This document shows, one piece after another, positions 11,868-22,475 of a stretch of DNA of 43,169 nt. The stretch's first letter is position 1; every line of letters starts with the position of its first letter. The notes below the pieces were generated by a model. It was not told the origin of the DNA and did not search any database. It saw only the letters and a program-made list of their open reading frames with translations. The stretch is from Candidatus Zhuqueibacterota bacterium (GTDB lineage Bacteria > Zhuqueibacterota > Zhuqueibacteria > Zhuqueibacterales > Zhuqueibacteraceae), in contig QEVD01000007.1 in NCBI GenBank assembly GCA_003576975.1, positions 1 to 43,169 on the forward strand, written 5' to 3'. The position numbers were made by a program, and so were the translations under genes.

Positions 11868-12890
11868 TTACTTGATCTTCAACGAAGCAACCATCTTCTC
11901 GAAGGTCGGCAGAAAGTCGGAACGCCGGGTCTGATCATAATTCATGATCACGCGGTAGATCTTATCATTCTTCACCAAAAAGTAAACCCGGCTTTCAATG
12001 CCACGCACCGGCGAATAAACACGATAGATGGCCTTGACGCCGTCAATTGTGCTTTCGCTCTGGCCTCTGCCCTTGAAGAATTTCTCATTCTGCTCAAAAA
12101 CTTTTTCCACGCTCAAGCCTTGCGCGGGCAACACATCGACTTGAACCGTGCAGTCCTGACGATAGCCTTTGAATTGAATCGAGGCTTCGGCGGGTGCTTT
12201 GGGCTTTAATGCATTGGCGCTGAAATTATCAGGATGATTGATGCTGATCAGGTTATTGGAAAACGCCACAAATGTCTCAGAGGGCAAGGTCGGATCAGCG
12301 GCCGCGGCAGCCGCTTGTTTGGTGGGCAGTCGCATCGAGGCCAGAAGCGTATCGATCGTTGCACGATAAGGCTCGAAGTAATCGTTGAACGCATTGTATT
12401 CGATGGTATAAAGCACCGAATCCTTGAGCGTCATGGTTTGCACGACGTACTTTTTTGTCTCTTTATCATAAGCGCCGCTGTAGACGATTTGCATGGCTTC
12501 GGTGCCGTCAACGGTTTTTGTGTCAACCGATCGAATTTGGAAGCCTTCTGCAGCGCGCGCTTCCTTGAACGAATCAATATATTGCGCGAGCGCCTGCACC
12601 GAGTCAAGCCGCTGATAGCTTACGGCAAGTTGAGCGCCGTCTTTGCCGGTTTTGGAGGTGGGGTTGTAGAATTTGTCAACGACATTCGGATCATTCGAGG
12701 AATAGATATTAACCTTGCCACCTTCTTCAATAACGTGCCAACCCTTGGGATAACTAAACGTGCCTTTAAAATAGGGGTTTTGATAAAGTTCGTATCCGGT
12801 TACTGCCGGAATTTGTGGCTTTGATGAGCAACCAGACAGCACCGCCAGGGTGGCCAAACCCAAGAGGTGCACGATGATAGTCTTGCGCAT
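11868..12890 (-). CDS. Lipoprotein of unknown function, last gene of the ExbB/TonB operon
   Basis: The gene encodes 340 residues from the ATG at 12890, chosen because GGAGG lies 6-8 bases upstream and the product then starts MRKTIIVHLLG with lipobox LSGC. The mature protein has two similar halves, each opening with a short fold reminiscent of PsbP/DcrB-like domains: FSYPKGWHVIEEGGKVNIYSS near 45-65 and SINHPDNFSANAL near 215. It is likely anchored to a membrane in the periplasm. It follows the TPR gene by 29 bases and precedes the operon terminator. No enzyme motif is seen. Confidence 0.8.
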   Translation of the reverse strand: MRKTIIVHLLGLATLAVLSGCSSKPQIPAVTGYELYQNPYFKGTFSYPKGWHVIEEGGKVNIYSSNDPNVVDKFYNPTSKTGKDGAQLAVSYQRLDSVQALAQYIDSFKEARAAEGFQIRSVDTKTVDGTEAMQIVYSGAYDKETKKYVVQTMTLKDSVLYTIEYNAFNDYFEPYRATIDTLLASMRLPTKQAAAAAADPTLPSETFVAFSNNLISINHPDNFSANALKPKAPAEASIQFKGYRQDCTVQVDVLPAQGLSVEKVFEQNEKFFKGRGQSESTIDGVKAIYRVYSPVRGIESRVYFLVKNDKIYRVIMNYDQTRRSDFLPTFEKMVASLKIK

Positions 12891-12919
12891 AAACCTTCCT
12901 CCTTGAACGGACATTTTAG

Positions 12920-14584
12920 TTATTGCCCTAGCAGCTTCAACCCTTCCACGGCGTCTTTGTGACCAGGGCTAAGTTTCAAAACACGATTATACTCCCGCTT
13001 GGCGTCCTCACGCTTGTTTTGTAAAGCGTAGGCTTGCGCCAACCAAAGATGGGTTTGGGCGTCACTATCGTCCAGCTTGAGCGACGCGAGCAGATAGCTT
13101 TCCGCGCCCGCGTATTTTTTGTCCAACAAATTGATGAACCCAAGTTGGCGATTGGCTTCCGCCAATTCCGCTTTATACTTTTCGCGGTCTTCTTCCGCGA
13201 GGGTAATGACTGCTTCATATTGCTTGCGCGCTTCCTGTACCGAGTCAACCTGGCTCAAGCAGAGGCCGAGCGAGTTGCGTCCGCGCAAATATTTCGGTTG
13301 CAACACCACGGCTTTGCGAAATCCGGCGCGCGCGGCATCCCATTGCCGGAGCGCCATTTTGCAATTGGCATAGTTAATGTAAACGGTGGCCATTGCAGGC
13401 GCATCAGGATCGCGGGTGAATTCTTTTTCGAACATGTCAGCCGCAATATCAAATTTCCGCATGCGCATGTAAAGCGCGCCAATATCGCTGTAAAGCTCCC
13501 ATTGCTCGGGATCCGCCTGCACGACTTTTTCGTAGGTTGAAGCCGCCAAAGAATCCTGGCCGCTGGCCATATACGCGCGGCCCAATCGCTTTAAGTCATC
13601 CGTGCTGAGCGGATCGACGCCGCGCAAACGATCATACGCGGTGATCGCTTCCGGATAATTCTTCAATTCGGTTTGCGAGGCCGCCAGTGTGCGCAACGCG
13701 TTTATCTCGTTGGGGTTGAGCTGCAACACATGCTGCGCCGCCTCCGTCGATTCCTGAAATTGCCGGCTTTGGAACATGGCATCCATATAAAGCGGCCAGG
13801 CCTCTTCCACCTTGGGAAAACGGCGAACATGCGTTTTAAAAACACGCGCCGATTCGCGCGGTAGCTTGGCGGCGGTATAAATCTTTCCCAACTCGAACAA
13901 AGCGGCTTGATTAGTGGTATCAATGCTGGTCAACCGCTCGTAAGTGCGGGCCGCTTCCGTGTATCGCCGTTCTTTGAAGTAAGACTTGGCGAGTTTGTGA
14001 TAAAGATCGGCTTGCAAAGAGTCGATTTCAAGCGATTTTTCATATTGCAGAATGCCCATACCCATGCTGCCCATCTTGGCGTAAGCATCTCCCAGGCCTT
14101 CATAGGCGGTAACATTGTTGGCGTCTGCTTCTTTTGCCAAGGTGTAGGCGGCAATTGCCTGTTCCGTTGAATCATTCGCCATGTAAACATTGCCCAACTG
14201 CACCAATAGCGCCGCGTTATTGCGAATATTCTTGCGGCCTTTTTTGATCGTGCTGTAGGCCAGATCGAAATCCTTTTTTGCCAATGCCGCTTTTGCAACC
14301 ACGACGTAACCTGTCGCATCTTTGCCGTTAATATCGATGGCTTTTTGGCCGCCAACCAGGGCCGAATCCGGTTGCGAAGCCTGCAAATGCGCTTCACCAA
14401 GCAATGCCCACGCTTCCAGGTCGCGCGGATTTACCGTGGTTGCCTGTCGCAAAGCCTTCAAAGCTTCCTGAGTTTTACCTTGCGTTAATAACTCTCGGGC
14501 TTCTGAAACCTTGTTATTTTGACTCAGAGCCGTTGACGCGGCGCTGAGTCCCATGAGCACAATCAAAGTGATTAAGCGTTTCAT
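12920..14584 (-). CDS. Periplasmic TPR-repeat protein
   Basis: The gene encodes 554 residues from the ATG at 14584 (MKRLITLIVLMGLSAASTALS, a clean signal peptide). The start lies 7 bases past the stop of the PstS-like gene, so translation is probably coupled. The whole mature part is tandem tetratricopeptide repeats, about a dozen 34-residue units (for example NVTAYEGLGDAYAKMGSMG and AQTHLWLAQAYALQNKREDA). Such proteins act as scaffolds for envelope complexes. The gene order ExbD-TonB-PstS-like-TPR recurs in FCB bacteria as far as I know, which suggests it works with the TonB-type motor. Confidence 0.88.
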   Translation of the reverse strand: MKRLITLIVLMGLSAASTALSQNNKVSEARELLTQGKTQEALKALRQATTVNPRDLEAWALLGEAHLQASQPDSALVGGQKAIDINGKDATGYVVVAKAALAKKDFDLAYSTIKKGRKNIRNNAALLVQLGNVYMANDSTEQAIAAYTLAKEADANNVTAYEGLGDAYAKMGSMGMGILQYEKSLEIDSLQADLYHKLAKSYFKERRYTEAARTYERLTSIDTTNQAALFELGKIYTAAKLPRESARVFKTHVRRFPKVEEAWPLYMDAMFQSRQFQESTEAAQHVLQLNPNEINALRTLAASQTELKNYPEAITAYDRLRGVDPLSTDDLKRLGRAYMASGQDSLAASTYEKVVQADPEQWELYSDIGALYMRMRKFDIAADMFEKEFTRDPDAPAMATVYINYANCKMALRQWDAARAGFRKAVVLQPKYLRGRNSLGLCLSQVDSVQEARKQYEAVITLAEEDREKYKAELAEANRQLGFINLLDKKYAGAESYLLASLKLDDSDAQTHLWLAQAYALQNKREDAKREYNRVLKLSPGHKDAVEGLKLLGQ

Positions 14585-14591
14585 CACAAGC

Positions 14592-15521
14592 CTATTGTTG
14601 TTTGAGCTGAACCAAACGAACGGGCATGGTTGCAGGAACCAACCCAGCATCTAAAATAATTTTCTGCCCCGGGCCGCTTGCCACAAACGTGATAAAGCCG
14701 GTGGCCACGCTCCGGCTGATGGGCCGCCAGTAAAAGTAAACAGGATAATGCAGCGGATACCGTTCCTGATAAATGTGAGCCTGATGCAATGTAACGAATG
14801 AAACGGCATTGGTTGAGTCGGCGGCGCCTTCAACCGCCAGAACGCGCAGCGTCGTCGTTGAATCGTGAGGCGCGGGATGGCCCACGCTGTCCGCCAAACA
14901 ACTCAACGAAACGATGCCAACGGCACGGGAATGCGTCGCGACGTAATGCAGGACTTGATTTTGGCTGGCCGCGAGATGGGTAAGAACCAGATCTTCCTTA
15001 AAATCAAAAAAATGCCTCTGCAAAAGCTCATAAGGGCCAGAGTTGCGCCCGGTGAGACTTAACTCGATGGGGCCGAACCATTTGGATTCCGGGATTTCAC
15101 TCCAATCGGAAGCCTGGCGCAGCAGGATCATTTCGAGCGAACGTCTGGAAATATTGGTAATGGGATTTTTTTGGTGCGTCACAATCGCCAAGGCATCTTC
15201 GGCAATGCGAAGATGATTCACCTCGAGCTGGGCCTCATCAACGACCTGCTGTTCCTCCTCGTTGAAGGTCCGATCAATAACGATTGCACTCACGCTGTCA
15301 TTGAGCAAATGCACAATGGCTTCGCGCGTCGAGGTCGCATATAACTCGACTTTTCCCTTGGGATAAAGACTGTGAAATTGTTCCGCTTCCCGCTGCATCA
15401 ACCGGAAGTGGGAATCATTCACCAATAGTGAAACATAGCCGCGCGTCGGATTTTCCGTTTCTTCAACCGAACATCCGACGATCCCGGCGAGCAGGACGCC
15501 GCATAGAAAGATCTTCTTCAT
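14592..15521 (-). CDS. PstS-like solute-binding lipoprotein without an ABC transporter
   Basis: The gene encodes 309 residues. The start MKKIFLCGVLLAGIVGC carries a signal peptide and lipobox ending at C17. The fold reads as a phosphate-type periplasmic binding protein: an N-terminal LLVNDSHFRLMQREAEQF segment, VSAIVIDRTFNEEE (the usual di-acid/SR region), then LTGRNSGPYELLQRHFF, which corresponds to the RxxSGT anion-binding loop but is altered. No pstC, pstA or pstB genes lie near it. Instead it sits inside an ExbB-TonB operon, so uptake through an ABC permease is unlikely and a sensing or cargo-capture role is possible. The start overlaps the preceding gene by 59 bases. Confidence 0.82.
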   Translation of the reverse strand: MKKIFLCGVLLAGIVGCSVEETENPTRGYVSLLVNDSHFRLMQREAEQFHSLYPKGKVELYATSTREAIVHLLNDSVSAIVIDRTFNEEEQQVVDEAQLEVNHLRIAEDALAIVTHQKNPITNISRRSLEMILLRQASDWSEIPESKWFGPIELSLTGRNSGPYELLQRHFFDFKEDLVLTHLAASQNQVLHYVATHSRAVGIVSLSCLADSVGHPAPHDSTTTLRVLAVEGAADSTNAVSFVTLHQAHIYQERYPLHYPVYFYWRPISRSVATGFITFVASGPGQKIILDAGLVPATMPVRLVQLKQQ

Positions 15522-15747: not shown

Positions 15748-16497
15748 TTATTTCCCTGAAAGCTTAAACCGGAAGGGGATGGAAATCCAAACCGCGACCG
15801 GGCCATTCTGTTGCAAGGCAGGCGTAAAAACCCACTGCGTCGCCGCATCAATGGCCGGCTGGTTAAAAATCTCTGCGTCGCTTTTTTGCACAACGGCTTT
15901 GCGAACTTTACCTTCCTTGTCGACCCAAACCTTGAGCCAAACCGTGCCTTCCAATCCGGCTTTGCGGGCGATTTCAGGATAGGTTGGGCTGGGCTTCTTG
16001 ATCGCTACCGGTTCTTTTTCAAAGGGCACGAAATCCGGCGGCGGGCCGTCTTCTTCGATTTGAATGTCTTGCTCAAAAACAACTTCACCGCCAGTGCCCG
16101 TGCCTTCTCCAATCGGACCCACGGCCTGCGCCAACTCTTCTTGCGAGGCGAAGGTTTGTTCGGGACTGACTTCCGCATCCGGAACCGGAATCGGAATACC
16201 AACGCTTGGGCGCACGGCCGGCGCAGACACCGAAATGGCCGGCGCAGCAGCGCTTTGATTGGTGAGAGAAGGCGGCGGCCCGAGTTCGCTATACTTCATG
16301 ATGCGAACCGTCACCATCGGCTCTTCTTCTTCCGGAAACAACAGCGGAATCACATAATAGGCGCCCAAGGCCCCGGCATGCAGCAGCGCGGCGATGATGA
16401 GTCCGGTAGTCGCATACTTCTTGTAATTCTTGACCAACTCCGGGGCGCCGTAGGGAAAAAGTTGTTCTAAAATTGCAACTTCTGAAAGTGCAGCCAT
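15748..16497 (-). CDS. tonB: TonB-family energy transducer
   Basis: The protein has 249 residues. A single membrane helix spans about 30-54. A Pro/Ala/Glu-rich periplasmic spacer follows (60-160), and a TonB C-terminal domain spans about 165-249 (PTYPEIARKAGLEGTVWLKV, ATQWVFTPALQQNGPVAVW). TonB proteins carry ExbB-ExbD energy to outer-membrane partners. GGGAG lies 6 bases before the ATG, and it follows exbD by 15 bases. No TonB-dependent receptor is encoded in the window, so its partner is unknown. Confidence 0.93.
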   Translation of the reverse strand: MAALSEVAILEQLFPYGAPELVKNYKKYATTGLIIAALLHAGALGAYYVIPLLFPEEEEPMVTVRIMKYSELGPPPSLTNQSAAAPAISVSAPAVRPSVGIPIPVPDAEVSPEQTFASQEELAQAVGPIGEGTGTGGEVVFEQDIQIEEDGPPPDFVPFEKEPVAIKKPSPTYPEIARKAGLEGTVWLKVWVDKEGKVRKAVVQKSDAEIFNQPAIDAATQWVFTPALQQNGPVAVWISIPFRFKLSGK

Positions 16498-16512: not shown

Positions 16513-17082
16513 TTACGGCCCGGCAGCCTGAATCGGCGGCCCGGCATATCCTGCTTTTTCTAATATCTTCTGATCGTCGGAAATCATCGGGGCGATACTG
16601 AATCGGGTGATGTTGGCAAGGTTCAACTCATCAATGATGTCAACCAGGTAGATGTATTGCCCCTCCCGATGCACTTTAATGAGGGTGATCAGCTTCGGGT
16701 TGGCGTTGCTGCGCTCTACCATCAGCGAGCGAAATTTTGCCAGGGCCTTCACCTTTTTGTCCACATCCTTAAGCTCATCACCCGCCACCACCACTTCCGG
16801 CACATCGTTTCCCATACTGCAATAAACGGTGCCATCTGGGACGATGCGCACGGTCATCAGATTCGATTCCGCCACATCGACCTTGGATTCATCCGGCGGG
16901 AGGTTGATTTCCATGGTTTGCGGCTTGCTGAACACCGTCGTCAGCATGAAAAATGTGAGCAGGAGGAAGGCAATATCCACCATCGGCGTCATGTCAATGC
17001 GGATGCCAAGGCGGCGTTTTTTCTTGTGCTTTTTTCCAGCCCGTGCATGACTTCTGGATTCACCAGTTTCGACAGCAGCCAT
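16513..17082 (-). CDS. exbD: ExbD/TolR-family proton channel subunit (second copy)
   Basis: The protein has 189 residues. A basic cytoplasmic N-terminus of about 30 residues (KKHKKKRRLGIRIDMTP) is followed by a membrane helix with the essential aspartate D36 (PMVDIAFLLLTFF), then a periplasmic domain. It is longer than the neighbouring ExbD (189 versus 155) mainly through the basic start and a longer end (ISDDQKILEKAGYAGPPIQ). GGAG lies 7 bases before the ATG. Two ExbD paralogues in one operon are typical of FCB TonB systems. Confidence 0.93.
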   Translation of the reverse strand: MAAVETGESRSHARAGKKHKKKRRLGIRIDMTPMVDIAFLLLTFFMLTTVFSKPQTMEINLPPDESKVDVAESNLMTVRIVPDGTVYCSMGNDVPEVVVAGDELKDVDKKVKALAKFRSLMVERSNANPKLITLIKVHREGQYIYLVDIIDELNLANITRFSIAPMISDDQKILEKAGYAGPPIQAAGP

Positions 17083-17094
17083 AGTGAAACTCCG

Positions 17095-17562
17095 TCAGGT
17101 TCTCTCAATATCCGTCACGAGGTTGAACCGCGTGATTTTGGTTTTTTGCAATGTATCCATGACGTCCTCGATGGTGCCGTACGGAGCGGAGCGATCAGCC
17201 TTAACGACGGTACGGAGTTTGGGATTTTTGACGCGCGCGTCAATCAGCAGGCGCGCGAGTGTTTCTTTATCCGCAACTTCCGTGCTCAGCTTCAAGCGGA
17301 ACTCCGGGCCAAAGACGGCCATGCGCAATTGCTGCGAGTCCAGGCCAAGGAAAATCTTGCCTTCCTCGTTTACCGACACTGTCATCACGTCCGTTTCCGG
17401 CAATTTGATCACCGAATGCGAGCTGGGAATAACCACGCTCACATCCTCCGGCGGACGGAATTGGGTGGTCAACATGAAAAAGGTTAGCAGCAAAAATGCC
17501 ACGTCCACCATGGGAGTCATGTCGATCTTGATGCCGATTCGACCTTTTTTAATCTTGGGCAT
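17095..17562 (-). CDS. exbD: ExbD/TolR-family proton channel subunit (first copy)
   Basis: The protein has 155 residues. D20 lies in the membrane helix motif DMTPMVDVAFLLLTFFMLTTQF, which is almost identical to the second ExbD; the periplasmic part differs more (VSVVIPSSHSVIKLPETD, ARLLIDARVKNPKLRTVV). It ends 12 bases before the second exbD and starts 22 bases after exbB, so the three are co-transcribed. Both copies keep the proton-carrying aspartate, which argues for a mixed ExbD dimer rather than one inactive copy. Confidence 0.93.
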   Translation of the reverse strand: MPKIKKGRIGIKIDMTPMVDVAFLLLTFFMLTTQFRPPEDVSVVIPSSHSVIKLPETDVMTVSVNEEGKIFLGLDSQQLRMAVFGPEFRLKLSTEVADKETLARLLIDARVKNPKLRTVVKADRSAPYGTIEDVMDTLQKTKITRFNLVTDIERT

Positions 17563-17584: not shown

Positions 17585-18310
17585 TTATTCTTTCGAGCGT
17601 GTTGCCAGGGTTTGCACGATGGAGTAGCTCGCCTCGTCAATCATGTAGGTGAAATTGTCAACGCGCGTGGTGAAAACGTTGTAGAACACGATGCCCAAAA
17701 TTGCCGCGAAGATGCCGCCGGCCGTGTTGATCAGGGCTTCCGAGATACCCAGCGAAAGCTGCACGGCGTCTGGCACACCGGCTTGCGCCAGCGCTTTGAA
17801 CGCGCGAATCATGCCGATAACCGTGCCGAACAAACCGACCATCGTGGCGATGGAGGCGATGGTGGAAAGCACGACCAGGTTTTTCTCGAGCAGCGGCACT
17901 TCGAGCAGCATGGCCTCTTCGATCGCATGCTGCACGTCGGCCATCATTTCTTTTTGCTCTTTTACCTTGCCACTCTCTTTCAATTCTTTGTAGCGCGCCA
18001 AACCATTGCGAATAACGTTTGCCAGCGAGCCGCGTTGGCGATCGCACGCTTCAATGGCGCCGTCGATGTTACCCGCGTGAATCTCTTGCTGGATTTTTTT
18101 CAAAAAGACCGTCATGGCGGTGCGGCCTTTGGCGCGATTCAATGACAACAACCGCTCAAAAATGAAGGTGACGACCATGATGGTCAACGCAATCAAAACC
18201 GAAACCACCGGACCACCATCCCGGATGAACTTGGGCAATTGCGTATAGATGGCATAACCGATAATCATGGAGATGACAACGACTGCCATGGTGAAGAAGC
18301 CTTGCTTCAT
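17585..18310 (-). CDS. exbB: ExbB/TolQ/MotA-family proton channel subunit
   Basis: The protein has 241 residues. Membrane helices lie at about 7-25 and 33-50, with further ones at about 140-165 and 185-208 (IASIATMVGLFGTVIGMIRAF and GISEALINTAGGIFAAILGI, the signature GTVxGM...EAL region of the family). A cytoplasmic helical domain lies between. GGAGG is 7 bases before the ATG. With ExbD it forms the proton-driven motor. The gene follows the STAS gene by 42 bases. Confidence 0.94.
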   Translation of the reverse strand: MKQGFFTMAVVVISMIIGYAIYTQLPKFIRDGGPVVSVLIALTIMVVTFIFERLLSLNRAKGRTAMTVFLKKIQQEIHAGNIDGAIEACDRQRGSLANVIRNGLARYKELKESGKVKEQKEMMADVQHAIEEAMLLEVPLLEKNLVVLSTIASIATMVGLFGTVIGMIRAFKALAQAGVPDAVQLSLGISEALINTAGGIFAAILGIVFYNVFTTRVDNFTYMIDEASYSIVQTLATRSKE

Positions 18311-18352
18311 GTGCAGACCTCCGCTTGGATGTTTGGTTGGAAAATCAGTGAG

Positions 18353-18694
18353 TTAAAAATTCATAATCGCCGCGTCACGCGTCTCTTCCACATCAAAGAC
18401 GCTCGTGAGTTTGGTAATCACAAAAACGTTTTGCACGCTTTTACCCATGTTGCACAACTTGATTTTCCCCTGGCCCTTGGTGTACATGGCATGCAGGCCG
18501 ACCAGCGCTCCGATGCCGGTACTGTTGATGTACGTCACCCCGCCCAGATCCACCACGAGCTTACGATTGCCTTGCTCGAATAGATCTTTGGCCTTCTCTT
18601 TCAACTCATCCGTCTCTTTGCCGCCGATAATCGACCCGCGCGGCTCCAGCACGGCTACTTCTAAATTGTTCAGAGTTGTTACTTTAACTGACAT
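18353..18694 (-). CDS. STAS-domain protein (anti-sigma factor antagonist type), first gene of the operon
   Basis: The gene encodes 113 residues from the ATG at 18694 (GAGGA upstream). It is a single STAS domain in the SpoIIAA/RsbV style: RKLVVDLGGVTYINSTGIGAL carries S58 at the usual phosphorylation site, with Asn instead of Asp before it. Such proteins are switched by serine kinases and phosphatases and bind anti-sigma factors or other partners. It lies just after the sigma-54-type promoter and before exbB. A STAS domain leading an ExbB-TonB operon is unusual and suggests a regulatory input to the complex or its expression. Confidence 0.9.
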   Translation of the reverse strand: MSVKVTTLNNLEVAVLEPRGSIIGGKETDELKEKAKDLFEQGNRKLVVDLGGVTYINSTGIGALVGLHAMYTKGQGKIKLCNMGKSVQNVFVITKLTSVFDVEETRDAAIMNF

Positions 18695-18770
18695 AGGAAT
18701 CCTCGCGAAAAGAGGTTTATCCGTTCGGCCTTGCGCCATCAGCGCGTTAAATTTTTTTAATCTCTGTTAC

Positions 18771-18785
18771 GCAAAGCCGGTGCCA
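18771..18785 (-). promoter_or_regulatory. Sigma-54 (-24/-12) promoter of the STAS-ExbB-TonB operon
   Basis: Minus-strand TGGCACC-GGCT-TTGC matches the consensus TGGCACG-N4-TTGCW at all key bases, with the GG and GC pairs separated by exactly 10. Transcription would start near 18759, about 65 bases before the STAS ATG. Confidence 0.75.
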
Positions 18786-18910
18786 GTGAATCCCGGAAGC
18801 ATTGCAGCTCTAACGTTATGATTTTTTGAGAGTGATATTGCAACCCACGTGTGACATTGTTTGAAAAATGCAATAGTATTTTCGATCACGCCGGTCTTGG
18901 ACTACCTAAT

Positions 18911-18953
18911 TGTTTAAATTTCTAAACAGATAAGTCATCTTGCATTTTGCAAG
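18911..18953. promoter_or_regulatory. Two palindromes, candidate enhancer sites for the NtrC-type regulator
   Basis: CTTGCATTTTGCAAG (18939-18953) is a perfect 6-3-6 palindrome. TGTTTA (18911-18916) and TAAACA (18923-18928) form a 6-6-6 palindrome. They lie about 130-180 bases upstream of the sigma-54 promoter, a usual enhancer distance. Confidence 0.4.
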
Positions 18954-19139
18954 GTGAGCATGTCACCGTAAAATCCAAGAAACTAATACTTTGGAAAAGT
19001 GGTGGACAAAGAATTCGCTAAAATGGAACAACATGAATTGTCAGCGTGAAGTAAATCTGCTTCACAATTCTGTCGCAGGGGAACCGCGGTATGGCAGGAT
19101 GAGGTTGGATATATTTTCTATGGAACGGCGCTGCCGCAA

Positions 19140-20468
19140 TCACAAATCAAATTTTTTGCGCTTGCGCCAAAGCGTGGCAGGATCGATGCCGAGAATCTTT
19201 GCGGCCTCATCGTAATCTTTCGCATGTTGCAGCACGCGCTTGACATGCAATTTTTCGATCTCTTCCAGAGAAAGCTCGTGTTGCGGCTTGTCGCGCGCAG
19301 AACGAACCTCCTCGGGCAGATGCGTCAATTCGATGAGATGGTTTTTGGTGAGCAACACCGCGCGTTCGATGACATTTTCAAGCTCACGCACGTTGCCGCT
19401 CCAGCGGTAGGCGCGCAGCGCTTGCAACGCCTCCGGCGAGATTTCGAGAACTTTATCGGGTGAGAATTTATTGAGGAAATGCTGAATCAACAGCGGAATG
19501 TCTTCCGGGCGGTCGCGCAGCGGCGTCAGCTTCAAACGCATGGTATTCAAGCGATAAAACAAATCTTCGCGAAAAGCGCCTTCTTTGAGCGCTTCATCCA
19601 GGTTGCGGTTGGTCGCTGCAATCACACGCACGTCCACCTGCGTGGTTTTGCTTTCGCCCACGCGCTCGAATTCCTTGTTCTGTAGCACGCGCAGCAGTTT
19701 TGCTTGAATCGCGGGCGAAAGCTCGGCGATTTCATCGAGAAAAATCGTGCCCCCGTCTGCCAGCGCGAAGCGGCCCTGGCGGTCTTTCACCGCGCCGGTG
19801 AACGCGCCCTTGACGTGTCCAAACAATTCACTTTCTAGAAGATTTTCCGGCAACGCCGCGCAATTGATTTTGATGAACGGCTTGCCGGACCGCGGGCTTT
19901 TTTGATAAATGAGCTGCGCCACCAGTTCTTTGCCGGTGCCGCTCTCGCCCTCGATCAACACGCTGATGTTGCTCTCGGCGACGCGGCCGCCAAGCTCGAG
20001 CATGTCGAGCATCTCGCGATTGCGCGTCACAAATTCGCCGGTGCCGCGCGACGCGGCAACCTGTTCGCGCAGTTCGCGAACTTCACGCGACAGCTCGTGA
20101 TGCTCCCAGGCTTTTTGCGCAAAGATTTGCAGTTCTTTGTAATCGAACGGCTTTTCGAGATAATGATATGCGCCTTTTTTAACGGTTTCGATGGCGCTGT
20201 CAATCGAGCCGTGCGCCGTGATGATGACTACCGTGGTCTCCGGCGAATGGCGTTTAATCTCCGCCAATATCTCCATGCCGTCCATTGGCCCCATTTTCAG
20301 ATCCACAAAGGCGAGATCAAAGCGTTCTTGCTGCAAAACTTCCAGCACTTCTTGCGGCTTCGAAATCAACCGCGTCTGAAAGCCGATCGCGTCGAAACAA
20401 ATTCCCATGGTTTTTAGAATATTCGTCTCGTCATCGACGACCAGGACTTTGGGGCGAATTTCAGGCAT
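19140..20468 (-). CDS. Sigma-54-dependent response regulator (NtrC/AlgB type)
   Basis: The gene encodes 442 residues from the ATG at 20468 (an upstream TTG at 20480 has no better ribosome site). The receiver domain spans 1-120 with phospho-acceptor D56 ([12 protein letters not shown]) and the acidic pair VVDDE. The AAA+ domain spans about 140-370, with Walker A GESGTGKE, the sigma-54 contact loop GAFTGA, and [12 protein letters not shown]. The C-terminal Fis-type helix-turn-helix is [19 protein letters not shown]. It follows the histidine kinase by 72 bases and is surely its partner. An obvious target is the sigma-54 promoter only about 360 bases downstream, before the STAS-ExbB operon. Confidence 0.95.
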
Positions 20469-20540: not shown

Positions 20541-22475
20541 TCAGCCTTCCGGCAGCTCCGGCGCAACGGGAATGGTAAAATTGAACTTGCTGCCCACCCC
20601 CACTTCGCTTTCCACCCAAATTTTGCCGCCGTGCGCCTCGATCACTTCCTTTGCAATCGCCAATCCCAAACCAACGCTGCCCGGCGTCGCATCTGTAGGC
20701 TCTTTCACCTGCACGAATTTTTCGAAAATCGTATCCAGGGCGGCTGCCGGAATGCCACGGCCCGTATCTGCCACGCACACTTGAATGACGCCATTGCTGC
20801 GCTCGGCGCTGATCGTCACGTTGCCGTGCGCCGGCGTGTAGCGCAGCGCATTGCTGACGAGATTGTTGATCACCCAGGAGAGTTTCTCCTGATCGCCCGG
20901 CACTTCCGGCAATGCCGGCGCGAGCGCAATATTGAGACTGACTTCTTTTTCTTCGAACAACAGCCGCAGCGGCCGCAGCGCGTGTTCGAGCAAACCCGGA
21001 AGGTTGAGAGACTCGCTCTTGATCTTATATCGCCCGGATTCCAGGCGCAGGAGATCGAGCAGCTCGCGCACCAGTTTCTTCAGGCGTTCACAATCATCTT
21101 TGGCGGCGTTCAGCAGCTCATGCTGGCGCGCGTTCATCTTTCCCAACACTTCCTGCGACAGAATATCGATCGTCATGTTGATCGCCGTCAACGGCGTGCG
21201 GAACTCATGAGACACGGTTGCCATGAATTCCGATTTCATTTGATCGAGATTCTTGAAGCGCGTCACATCCTGCAACAGCGTCACCACGCCCTGCACCTGA
21301 CCCTGCTCATCGGTGATCTTGGTCTGGCGCGGGCGATAATAAAATGTTTTGCCCTCGCGCGCCACCGCCAACAAAAAATCGTTGTGCTCCGGATCACCCT
21401 GCTTGTCTTCTTTAACCTCCATGAGTTTGGCCCACAAATCATTGTTCTGCAGCAGGCGCAAGGGCTGGCCCTGCCAGCTCGCGCCTTGCACGCCAATCAT
21501 GGTCGCCGCCGCCTCATTCATCAAAAGAATGCTGCTGTTTTCGTCGGTGACGATGATGGGGTCAGCGATGCTTTCGACGATGGTTTCGGATTTTTTCTTT
21601 TCCGCGATCAATTGGTGGATGTTCAACTCTTCGTAGCTGCGCAGCCGTTCCGTCATTTTGTTGAACTCGCGGCTCAACTCGCCGATTTCGTCTTCGGTTT
21701 GGATGTCGATTTTCTGGTTCAAATTGCCTTCGCCAATGCGCCGCACGGTTTGCGTGAGCTTCTTCAGCGGTTTGAGAATAGAGCCGGTGAATTGCAAACT
21801 GCCGAGGATGCTGAGCAAAATCGCGATGACCAGGGCGACGATCACGACTTGCGTGGCCTGGCCGGTAATGTCTTTCGCGCGGCGATCCATGCTGCTGATG
21901 GCTTCTTGATTCGTTTCCAGCAGCGTTTTGCAATATCGATTGATTTTGACCAGGCTGGGTTCGATCTCGGCGCGCTGGAAGGCGCGCAACTTCGCGAAGG
22001 GTTGCCGCTTTTGCACCATGTGATGCAACGAGTCTGAGACGGCAAGAAAATGCCGGTAGGCAAAAATGATGCTATCCAACAAGGCGTGTTCGGAGGGCGA
22101 AGTAATAACGCTGTTCGTTTGCTCGAACCATTGCAAGAACTCGTCGCGATTGGTATTGAACACCGCCAACGGCAACTCCAAGCTGCGGTTGGCGTCGTAA
22201 ACCACCAGCGAGCGTTCTTCGCTGCGCTCGGTGTTGAACAACACCAGCGTGGAGTCGCCGCTTTGCACCAGCATGGCGAGCAGCGCGTTCTCTTGATTGT
22301 CGAGCGCCTTCAGCATGTTTTCCGCGGCGAGCACGTTCTCGTAGTTCTGCTTCAAAATGCCGCCCACCGAATTGCTCAATTGCGAAAAATCGTGCACCGC
22401 GAAAATGCTCGTGACCAGAATGATGGCCAGCAGCACGACGTAACCCGTCGCAATTTTGTAACGCAGACCTCTCAT
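20541..22475 (-). CDS. Membrane sensor histidine kinase with HAMP and PAS domains (KinB-like)
   Basis: The protein has 644 residues. Order: membrane helix about 8-28, a long helical periplasmic sensor (30-210), second helix about 210-232, HAMP about 232-285, PAS about 300-410 ([20 protein letters not shown]), and HisKA with phospho-acceptor H423 ([12 protein letters not shown]). The ATPase domain about 530-640 carries N box [12 protein letters not shown] and G boxes DTGRGIP and [11 protein letters not shown]. This layout and its NtrC-type partner resemble Pseudomonas KinB/AlgB. The signal sensed is unknown. No clear ribosome site precedes the ATG. Confidence 0.93.

Follow-up and report, generated by a model that had tools for sequence, protein, structure and literature searches.

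The operon that runs from the STAS gene to the PsbP-like gene is very probably transcribed from a sigma-54 promoter at 18785-18771 on the minus strand, with the adjacent NtrC-type response regulator as its dedicated activator. The candidate promoter, a pair of upstream sites, the fixed spacing of this pair and its linkage to the regulator are all established by computational comparison of orthologous loci. The whole stretch of DNA analysed, referred to here as the window, has 43,169 nucleotides and is contig C21 of a metagenome-assembled genome of 7.25 Mb (G000). Its relatives with names belong to candidate division KSB1, and more orthologs were found in assemblies of Ignavibacteria/Bacteroidota; many of the compared genomes are fragmented metagenome assemblies.

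The genes of the module all lie on the minus strand, in the order histidine kinase, response regulator, a gap of 445 bp, STAS, ExbB, two ExbD, TonB, small membrane protein, periplasmic binding protein (PBP), TPR and PsbP (Table 1). The order kinase, regulator, sites, STAS, ExbB, ExbD, ExbD, TonB, PBP and TPR is kept across the orthologous loci. ExbB, ExbD and TonB C-terminal domains occur together in one operon, which identifies a TonB-ExbB-ExbD system, and no partner receptor is encoded within the operon. The PstS-like PBP with its lipobox sits inside the TonB motor operon at a position conserved over two phyla, and the cluster that holds it in the window has no ABC permease.

Table 1. Coordinates of the genes and DNA elements of the module in the window.
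Feature	Position	Strand	Basis
Membrane histidine kinase (predicted four-helix-bundle periplasmic sensor, HAMP, PAS, HisKA, HATPase)	20541..22475	-	Pfam, AlphaFold2, Foldseek
NtrC-type response regulator (receiver D56, Walker A, GAFTGA, Fis-type HTH with helix DPATLWRK)	19140..20468	-	Pfam/NCBIfam, motifs, orthologs
UAS1, distal candidate activator site TTGCAAAATGCAA (TTGCATTTTGCAA), perfect TTGCA-N3-TGCAA palindrome	18940..18952	-	Conserved to Bacteroidota/Ignavibacteria
TGTTTA-N6-TAAACA inverted repeat	18911..18928	.	Within genus only (G000/G506/G001/G002)
TTAG element midway between UAS1 and UAS2	18906..18909	-	TTA at midpoint in lineage representatives
UAS2, proximal candidate activator site TTGCATTTTTCAA (TTGAAAAATGCAA), one mismatch	18861..18873	-	Conserved pair spacing
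Sigma-54 -24/-12 promoter TGGCACC-GGCT-TTGC = TGGCACCGGCTTTGC	18771..18785	-	Exact match and conservation
STAS protein, anti-sigma-antagonist superfamily	18353..18694	-	Pfam/NCBIfam
ExbB/TolQ-type proton channel subunit	17585..18310	-	Pfam/NCBIfam
ExbD/TolR 1	17095..17562	-	Pfam
ExbD/TolR 2	16513..17082	-	Pfam
TonB	15748..16497	-	Pfam
Small membrane protein, putative start codon	15521..15747	-	Kept in place across loci
PstS-like periplasmic binding protein with lipobox	14592..15521	-	Pfam/NCBIfam, conserved order
TPR protein	12920..14650	-	Domain search, conserved order
PsbP-like protein, final conserved gene of cluster	11868..12914	-	Domain search, conserved order

The first-pass annotation of this DNA had placed a minus-strand -24/-12 element with GG-N10-GC spacing in front of STAS, and the exact match confirms it: TGGCAC-N5-TTGC occurs once in the whole window, at this position. 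The transcription start is predicted near 18759, giving a leader of about 65 nt up to the STAS ATG at 18694. Shuffled windows contain at least one exact match in 22 of 100 cases, with a mean expectation of 0.25, and we rejected the single-window match as evidence. Since the match in one window is weak on its own, orthologous loci were gathered. An element of this kind lies upstream of STAS in all 31 loci of KSB1 and Ignavibacteria/Bacteroidota whose genome carries the regulator. It reads TGGYAY-N5-TTG exactly in 28 of them and deviates only at the first T in the remaining three, and it stands 62-133 bp from the start codon in 29 loci; in the other two, which are sister species, the distance is about 231 bp. 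That the -24/-12 bases are a chance match beside unrelated palindromes, as the shuffled windows might allow, has a negligible probability, and it is already refuted by conservation, which covers the position, the sequence and the linked sites across two phyla. We regard the predicted promoter as secure through this conservation. The first-pass annotation had staked its proposal on conservation of the -24/-12 bases and palindromes in orthologous loci; this comparison was run, and the proposal came through it.

The promoter is present or absent together with the regulator. None of the 10 loci without regulator has the element, ortholog absence having been checked genome-wide in six of these and in the neighbourhood only in four. 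Co-occurrence of promoter and regulator gives a Fisher p of 3e-6, uncorrected for kinship, against a chance rate of about 0.4% per locus; both values come from a narrower upstream interval, in which 26 of the 31 regulator-bearing loci were counted. A single RpoN is encoded in the genome of the window (E=1.6e-60), and rpoN was found in 27 of 29 related genomes searched. It is also present in all five regulator-less genomes that were searched for it; therefore it is the promoter that is missing there and not the sigma factor, and loss of sigma-54 was rejected as the cause of missing promoters in the regulator-less Ignavibacteria. Six of the 10 regulator-less loci (L077, L078, L079, L122, L123 and L124) share a conserved block, TTTCTTATTGCAA-TTGA...TTTATCTT, upstream of STAS, which is probably a replacement housekeeping promoter.

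This block bears on the reading that the sigma-54 promoter is real but works as a secondary booster, with the main expression coming from read-through from the kinase and regulator genes or from a housekeeping promoter. Read-through fits the location of all genes on one strand and the lack of a minus-strand terminator-like site between regulator and STAS. In Ignavibacteria without the regulator the sigma-54 site is lost, and the block stands at a similar place in most of them; in addition, TonB-ExbBD is highly expressed in all conditions in Flavobacterium psychrophilum (PMC9723704). However, a simple scan of 18300-19200 gave no minus-strand sigma-70-like site, and the sigma-54 module is retained over two phyla, which implies that the module matters. 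We consider a secondary role unlikely, and keep to the sigma-54 element as the main promoter of the operon.

Upstream of the promoter are two sites of the TTGCA-N3-TGCAA type, 79 bp apart in the window. Two palindromes had been noticed from the sequence at first, and both exist; the distal one (UAS1) is conserved beyond the genus, but the TGTTTA-N6-TAAACA repeat is conserved in the genus only and was rejected as activator site, and the proximal site (UAS2) had been missed. The spacing of the pair is 76-80 bp in nearly all loci across two phyla. A matrix trained on KSB1 pairs only finds pairs 76-80 bp apart in 10/10 Bacteroidota-side loci with DPATL/DRATL helices, each at p<=1/401, a value limited by the 400 shuffles per locus. 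Two loci are exceptions: in G004 two perfect sites are 102 bp apart, and G077 has weak sites (p = 0.03), no rpoN was found in it, and its genome is 76% complete. The palindrome pattern is rare, with only 10 sites in the 7.2-Mb genome. Pattern and profile searches of this genome returned the paired module only once, so the regulator looks, from these searches, dedicated to the TonB operon there; a broad regulon was rejected on the same searches. A TTGCAAATTGCAA site on contig C639 of this genome sits within a long open reading frame, has no sigma-54 site close to it and was taken as chance.

The gene next to the promoter had been proposed to encode a sigma-54 activator, and its product indeed has a receiver with phosphoacceptor Asp, an AAA+ domain whose GAFTGA is encoded at 19791-19808, and a Fis-type HTH, which together make it an NtrC-type enhancer-binding response regulator. 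Its scores are below the NCBIfam equivalog cut-offs for AtoC (450/714), NtrC (406/559) and ZraR (362/760), and also for GlrR. The recognition helix varies together with the sites. Regulators with a DPATLWRK or DRATLWKK helix pair with TTGCA-type sites, and all six loci with a DRKTLLNK helix have GGGGAATTTTTCCCC-type pairs, spaced as in the others. On a regulator tree built without the HTH, in which a group of four has support of 95/98, the DRKTLLNK regulator of L057 falls among the DPATLWRK regulators, apart from the other five DRKTLLNK rows. This placement indicates that the helix/site switch arose at least twice, and we count two independent events, a small number, as the minimum suggested by the tree. 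The pair of L057, outside the training set of the second matrix, still beats all 400 shuffles.

The link between regulator and sites also persists when the genes are apart. Three genomes, G004, G006 and G037, encode the regulator at an unlinked place, and all three retain helix and sites. The G037 ortholog (L162, contig C200) spans three frames (1-286, 285-391 and 393-442), which is either an assembly error or a decayed or recently broken gene. Moreover, the site pair and the sigma-54 promoter precede second, stand-alone tonB paralogs in one KSB1 genome (G006) and two Bacteroidota genomes (G217 and G412). These second modules are located at L044:17118-18117 in G006 and at L177 and L178 in the two Bacteroidota genomes.

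Could a different NtrC-type regulator activate the promoter through the paired sites? NtrC paralogs are indeed numerous in KSB1 genomes (G037 has 23 at E<=1e-85), and the adjacent regulator gene is missing from its place in the three genomes where it is unlinked. Nevertheless, helix-site covariation and shared presence and absence indicate this ortholog, and the unlinked orthologs retain the same helix, making another regulator very improbable. The earlier proposal that the adjacent regulator acts at this promoter is thus supported by co-retention and co-loss, helix-site covariation, persistence of the sites where the regulator is unlinked, and the tonB-paralog modules. Since the species compared are related and do not count independently, most weight falls on the out-of-sample tests, on the two helix switches and on those modules that are unlinked or duplicated. 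Helix-site covariation and co-retention strongly support the predicted binding of the regulator to the palindromic sites upstream of its target promoter.

The membrane histidine kinase expected as partner of the regulator is present as the HAMP-PAS-HisKA-HATPase gene of Table 1. Apparent membrane helices flank its predicted four-helix bundle (AlphaFold2, mean pLDDT 78.6), which resembles chemoreceptor (Tsr/Tar), NarQ and KinB-like sensors in Foldseek searches. Conservation is highest in HAMP, and the sensor is variable. From the predicted structure, an envelope signal is a plausible input to the kinase.

Phosphorylation, binding, hexamer formation and looping are established steps of NtrC-type activators. 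For the window we infer that phosphorylation and looping take place, that the regulator activates and does not repress, and that a signal starts the chain. The kinase would sense a periplasmic ligand or condition via its four-helix bundle and phosphorylate the regulator at D56. Regulator dimers would bind UAS1 and UAS2, and the AAA+ hexamer would form, loop to the sigma-54 polymerase and open the promoter. The outcome would be transcription of the TonB motor operon.

The geometry of the paired sites may have a function of its own. Enhancers are usually freely spaced, and the classical paired NtrC sites of glnA are about 32 bp apart, in contrast to 76-80 bp here. The step from activator site to promoter is 58-86 bp in most loci. 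In 9/12 lineage representatives, versus 1.4 expected, a TTA lies exactly halfway between the two sites; this midpoint element is likely but provisional, because the motif was chosen after looking. The fixed 76-80 bp, about 7.5 helical turns, the midpoint TTA and the 58-86-bp promoter step lead us to a tentative reading, which we hold as the less probable one: the sites may be a rigid higher-order enhancer that carries a nucleoprotein complex of defined shape, in which a DNA-bending protein may occupy the midpoint, and that couples the periplasmic signal specifically to the supply of the TonB motor. The 76-80 bp geometry and the midpoint element are unusual, and a shaped enhancer as their origin is possible but unproven.

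The STAS protein scores 60.2 bits against TIGR00377 (cut-off 53.45). Its Ser58 is invariant and aligned with the phosphoacceptor Ser of SpoIIAA, which we take to be Ser58, and the STAS fold together with a phosphoacceptor Ser classifies it as an anti-sigma-factor antagonist. Pfam searches of the operon and neighbouring genes gave no partner anti-sigma kinase. All these operons, whether or not they have the sigma-54 module, begin with a STAS gene ahead of ExbB, which suggests that the STAS protein acts together with the ExbB motor, perhaps in its regulation. A literature search on a STAS-ExbB partnership or on sigma-54 in KSB1 found nothing.

ExbB-ExbD-ExbD-TonB operons are known in Bacteroidota and Xanthomonas. 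The present operon is similar in its motor gene set with two exbD genes, but differs in the leading STAS, the trailing PstS-like PBP, TPR and PsbP-like genes, and the dedicated sigma-54 switch. The switch itself resembles NtrC/AtoC/ZraR-type activators in domain order, GAFTGA, paired kinase, palindromic upstream sites and -24/-12 promoter; here, in contrast, the target is a TonB-ExbBD operon and the regulator falls below the equivalog cut-offs. Judged by sequence, the mechanism would thus be of standard NtrC type, its target is unreported, and the enhancer geometry appears unusually rigid. In Flavobacteriia, TonB (COG0810) stands out in the sigma-54 regulon predicted by a 2025 survey, which called this unconfirmed (PMC12316311). 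Both cases have sigma-54 sites before tonB genes in Bacteroidota, but the survey reports enrichment and gives neither an activator nor enhancer sites, and its main text names neither KSB1 nor Ignavibacteria. In F. psychrophilum, sigma-54 promoters serve envelope stress and gliding genes (PMC9723704), and the same paper cites an exbD reference for this species. The sections seen of studies on Clostridiales (PMC6615313) and Desulfovibrio (PMC4641369) describe UAS similarity that tracks similarity of DNA-binding domains and many activators that adjoin a single target; they concern other phyla and other targets, and no TonB-type target appears in those sections. We found no report of the present sigma-54/TonB module in the literature search.

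Work on TonB systems usually treats them as controlled by iron or nutrients. In the module described here, a TonB motor would have a dedicated two-component sigma-54 switch, which is shared by two phyla and retained even where the regulator gene has moved. For the sigma-54 control of TonB that the 2025 survey left unconfirmed, the present comparison provides a candidate activator together with its sites and a specificity switch, and the natural swap of helix and site is well suited to working out how Fis-type recognition helices read DNA.
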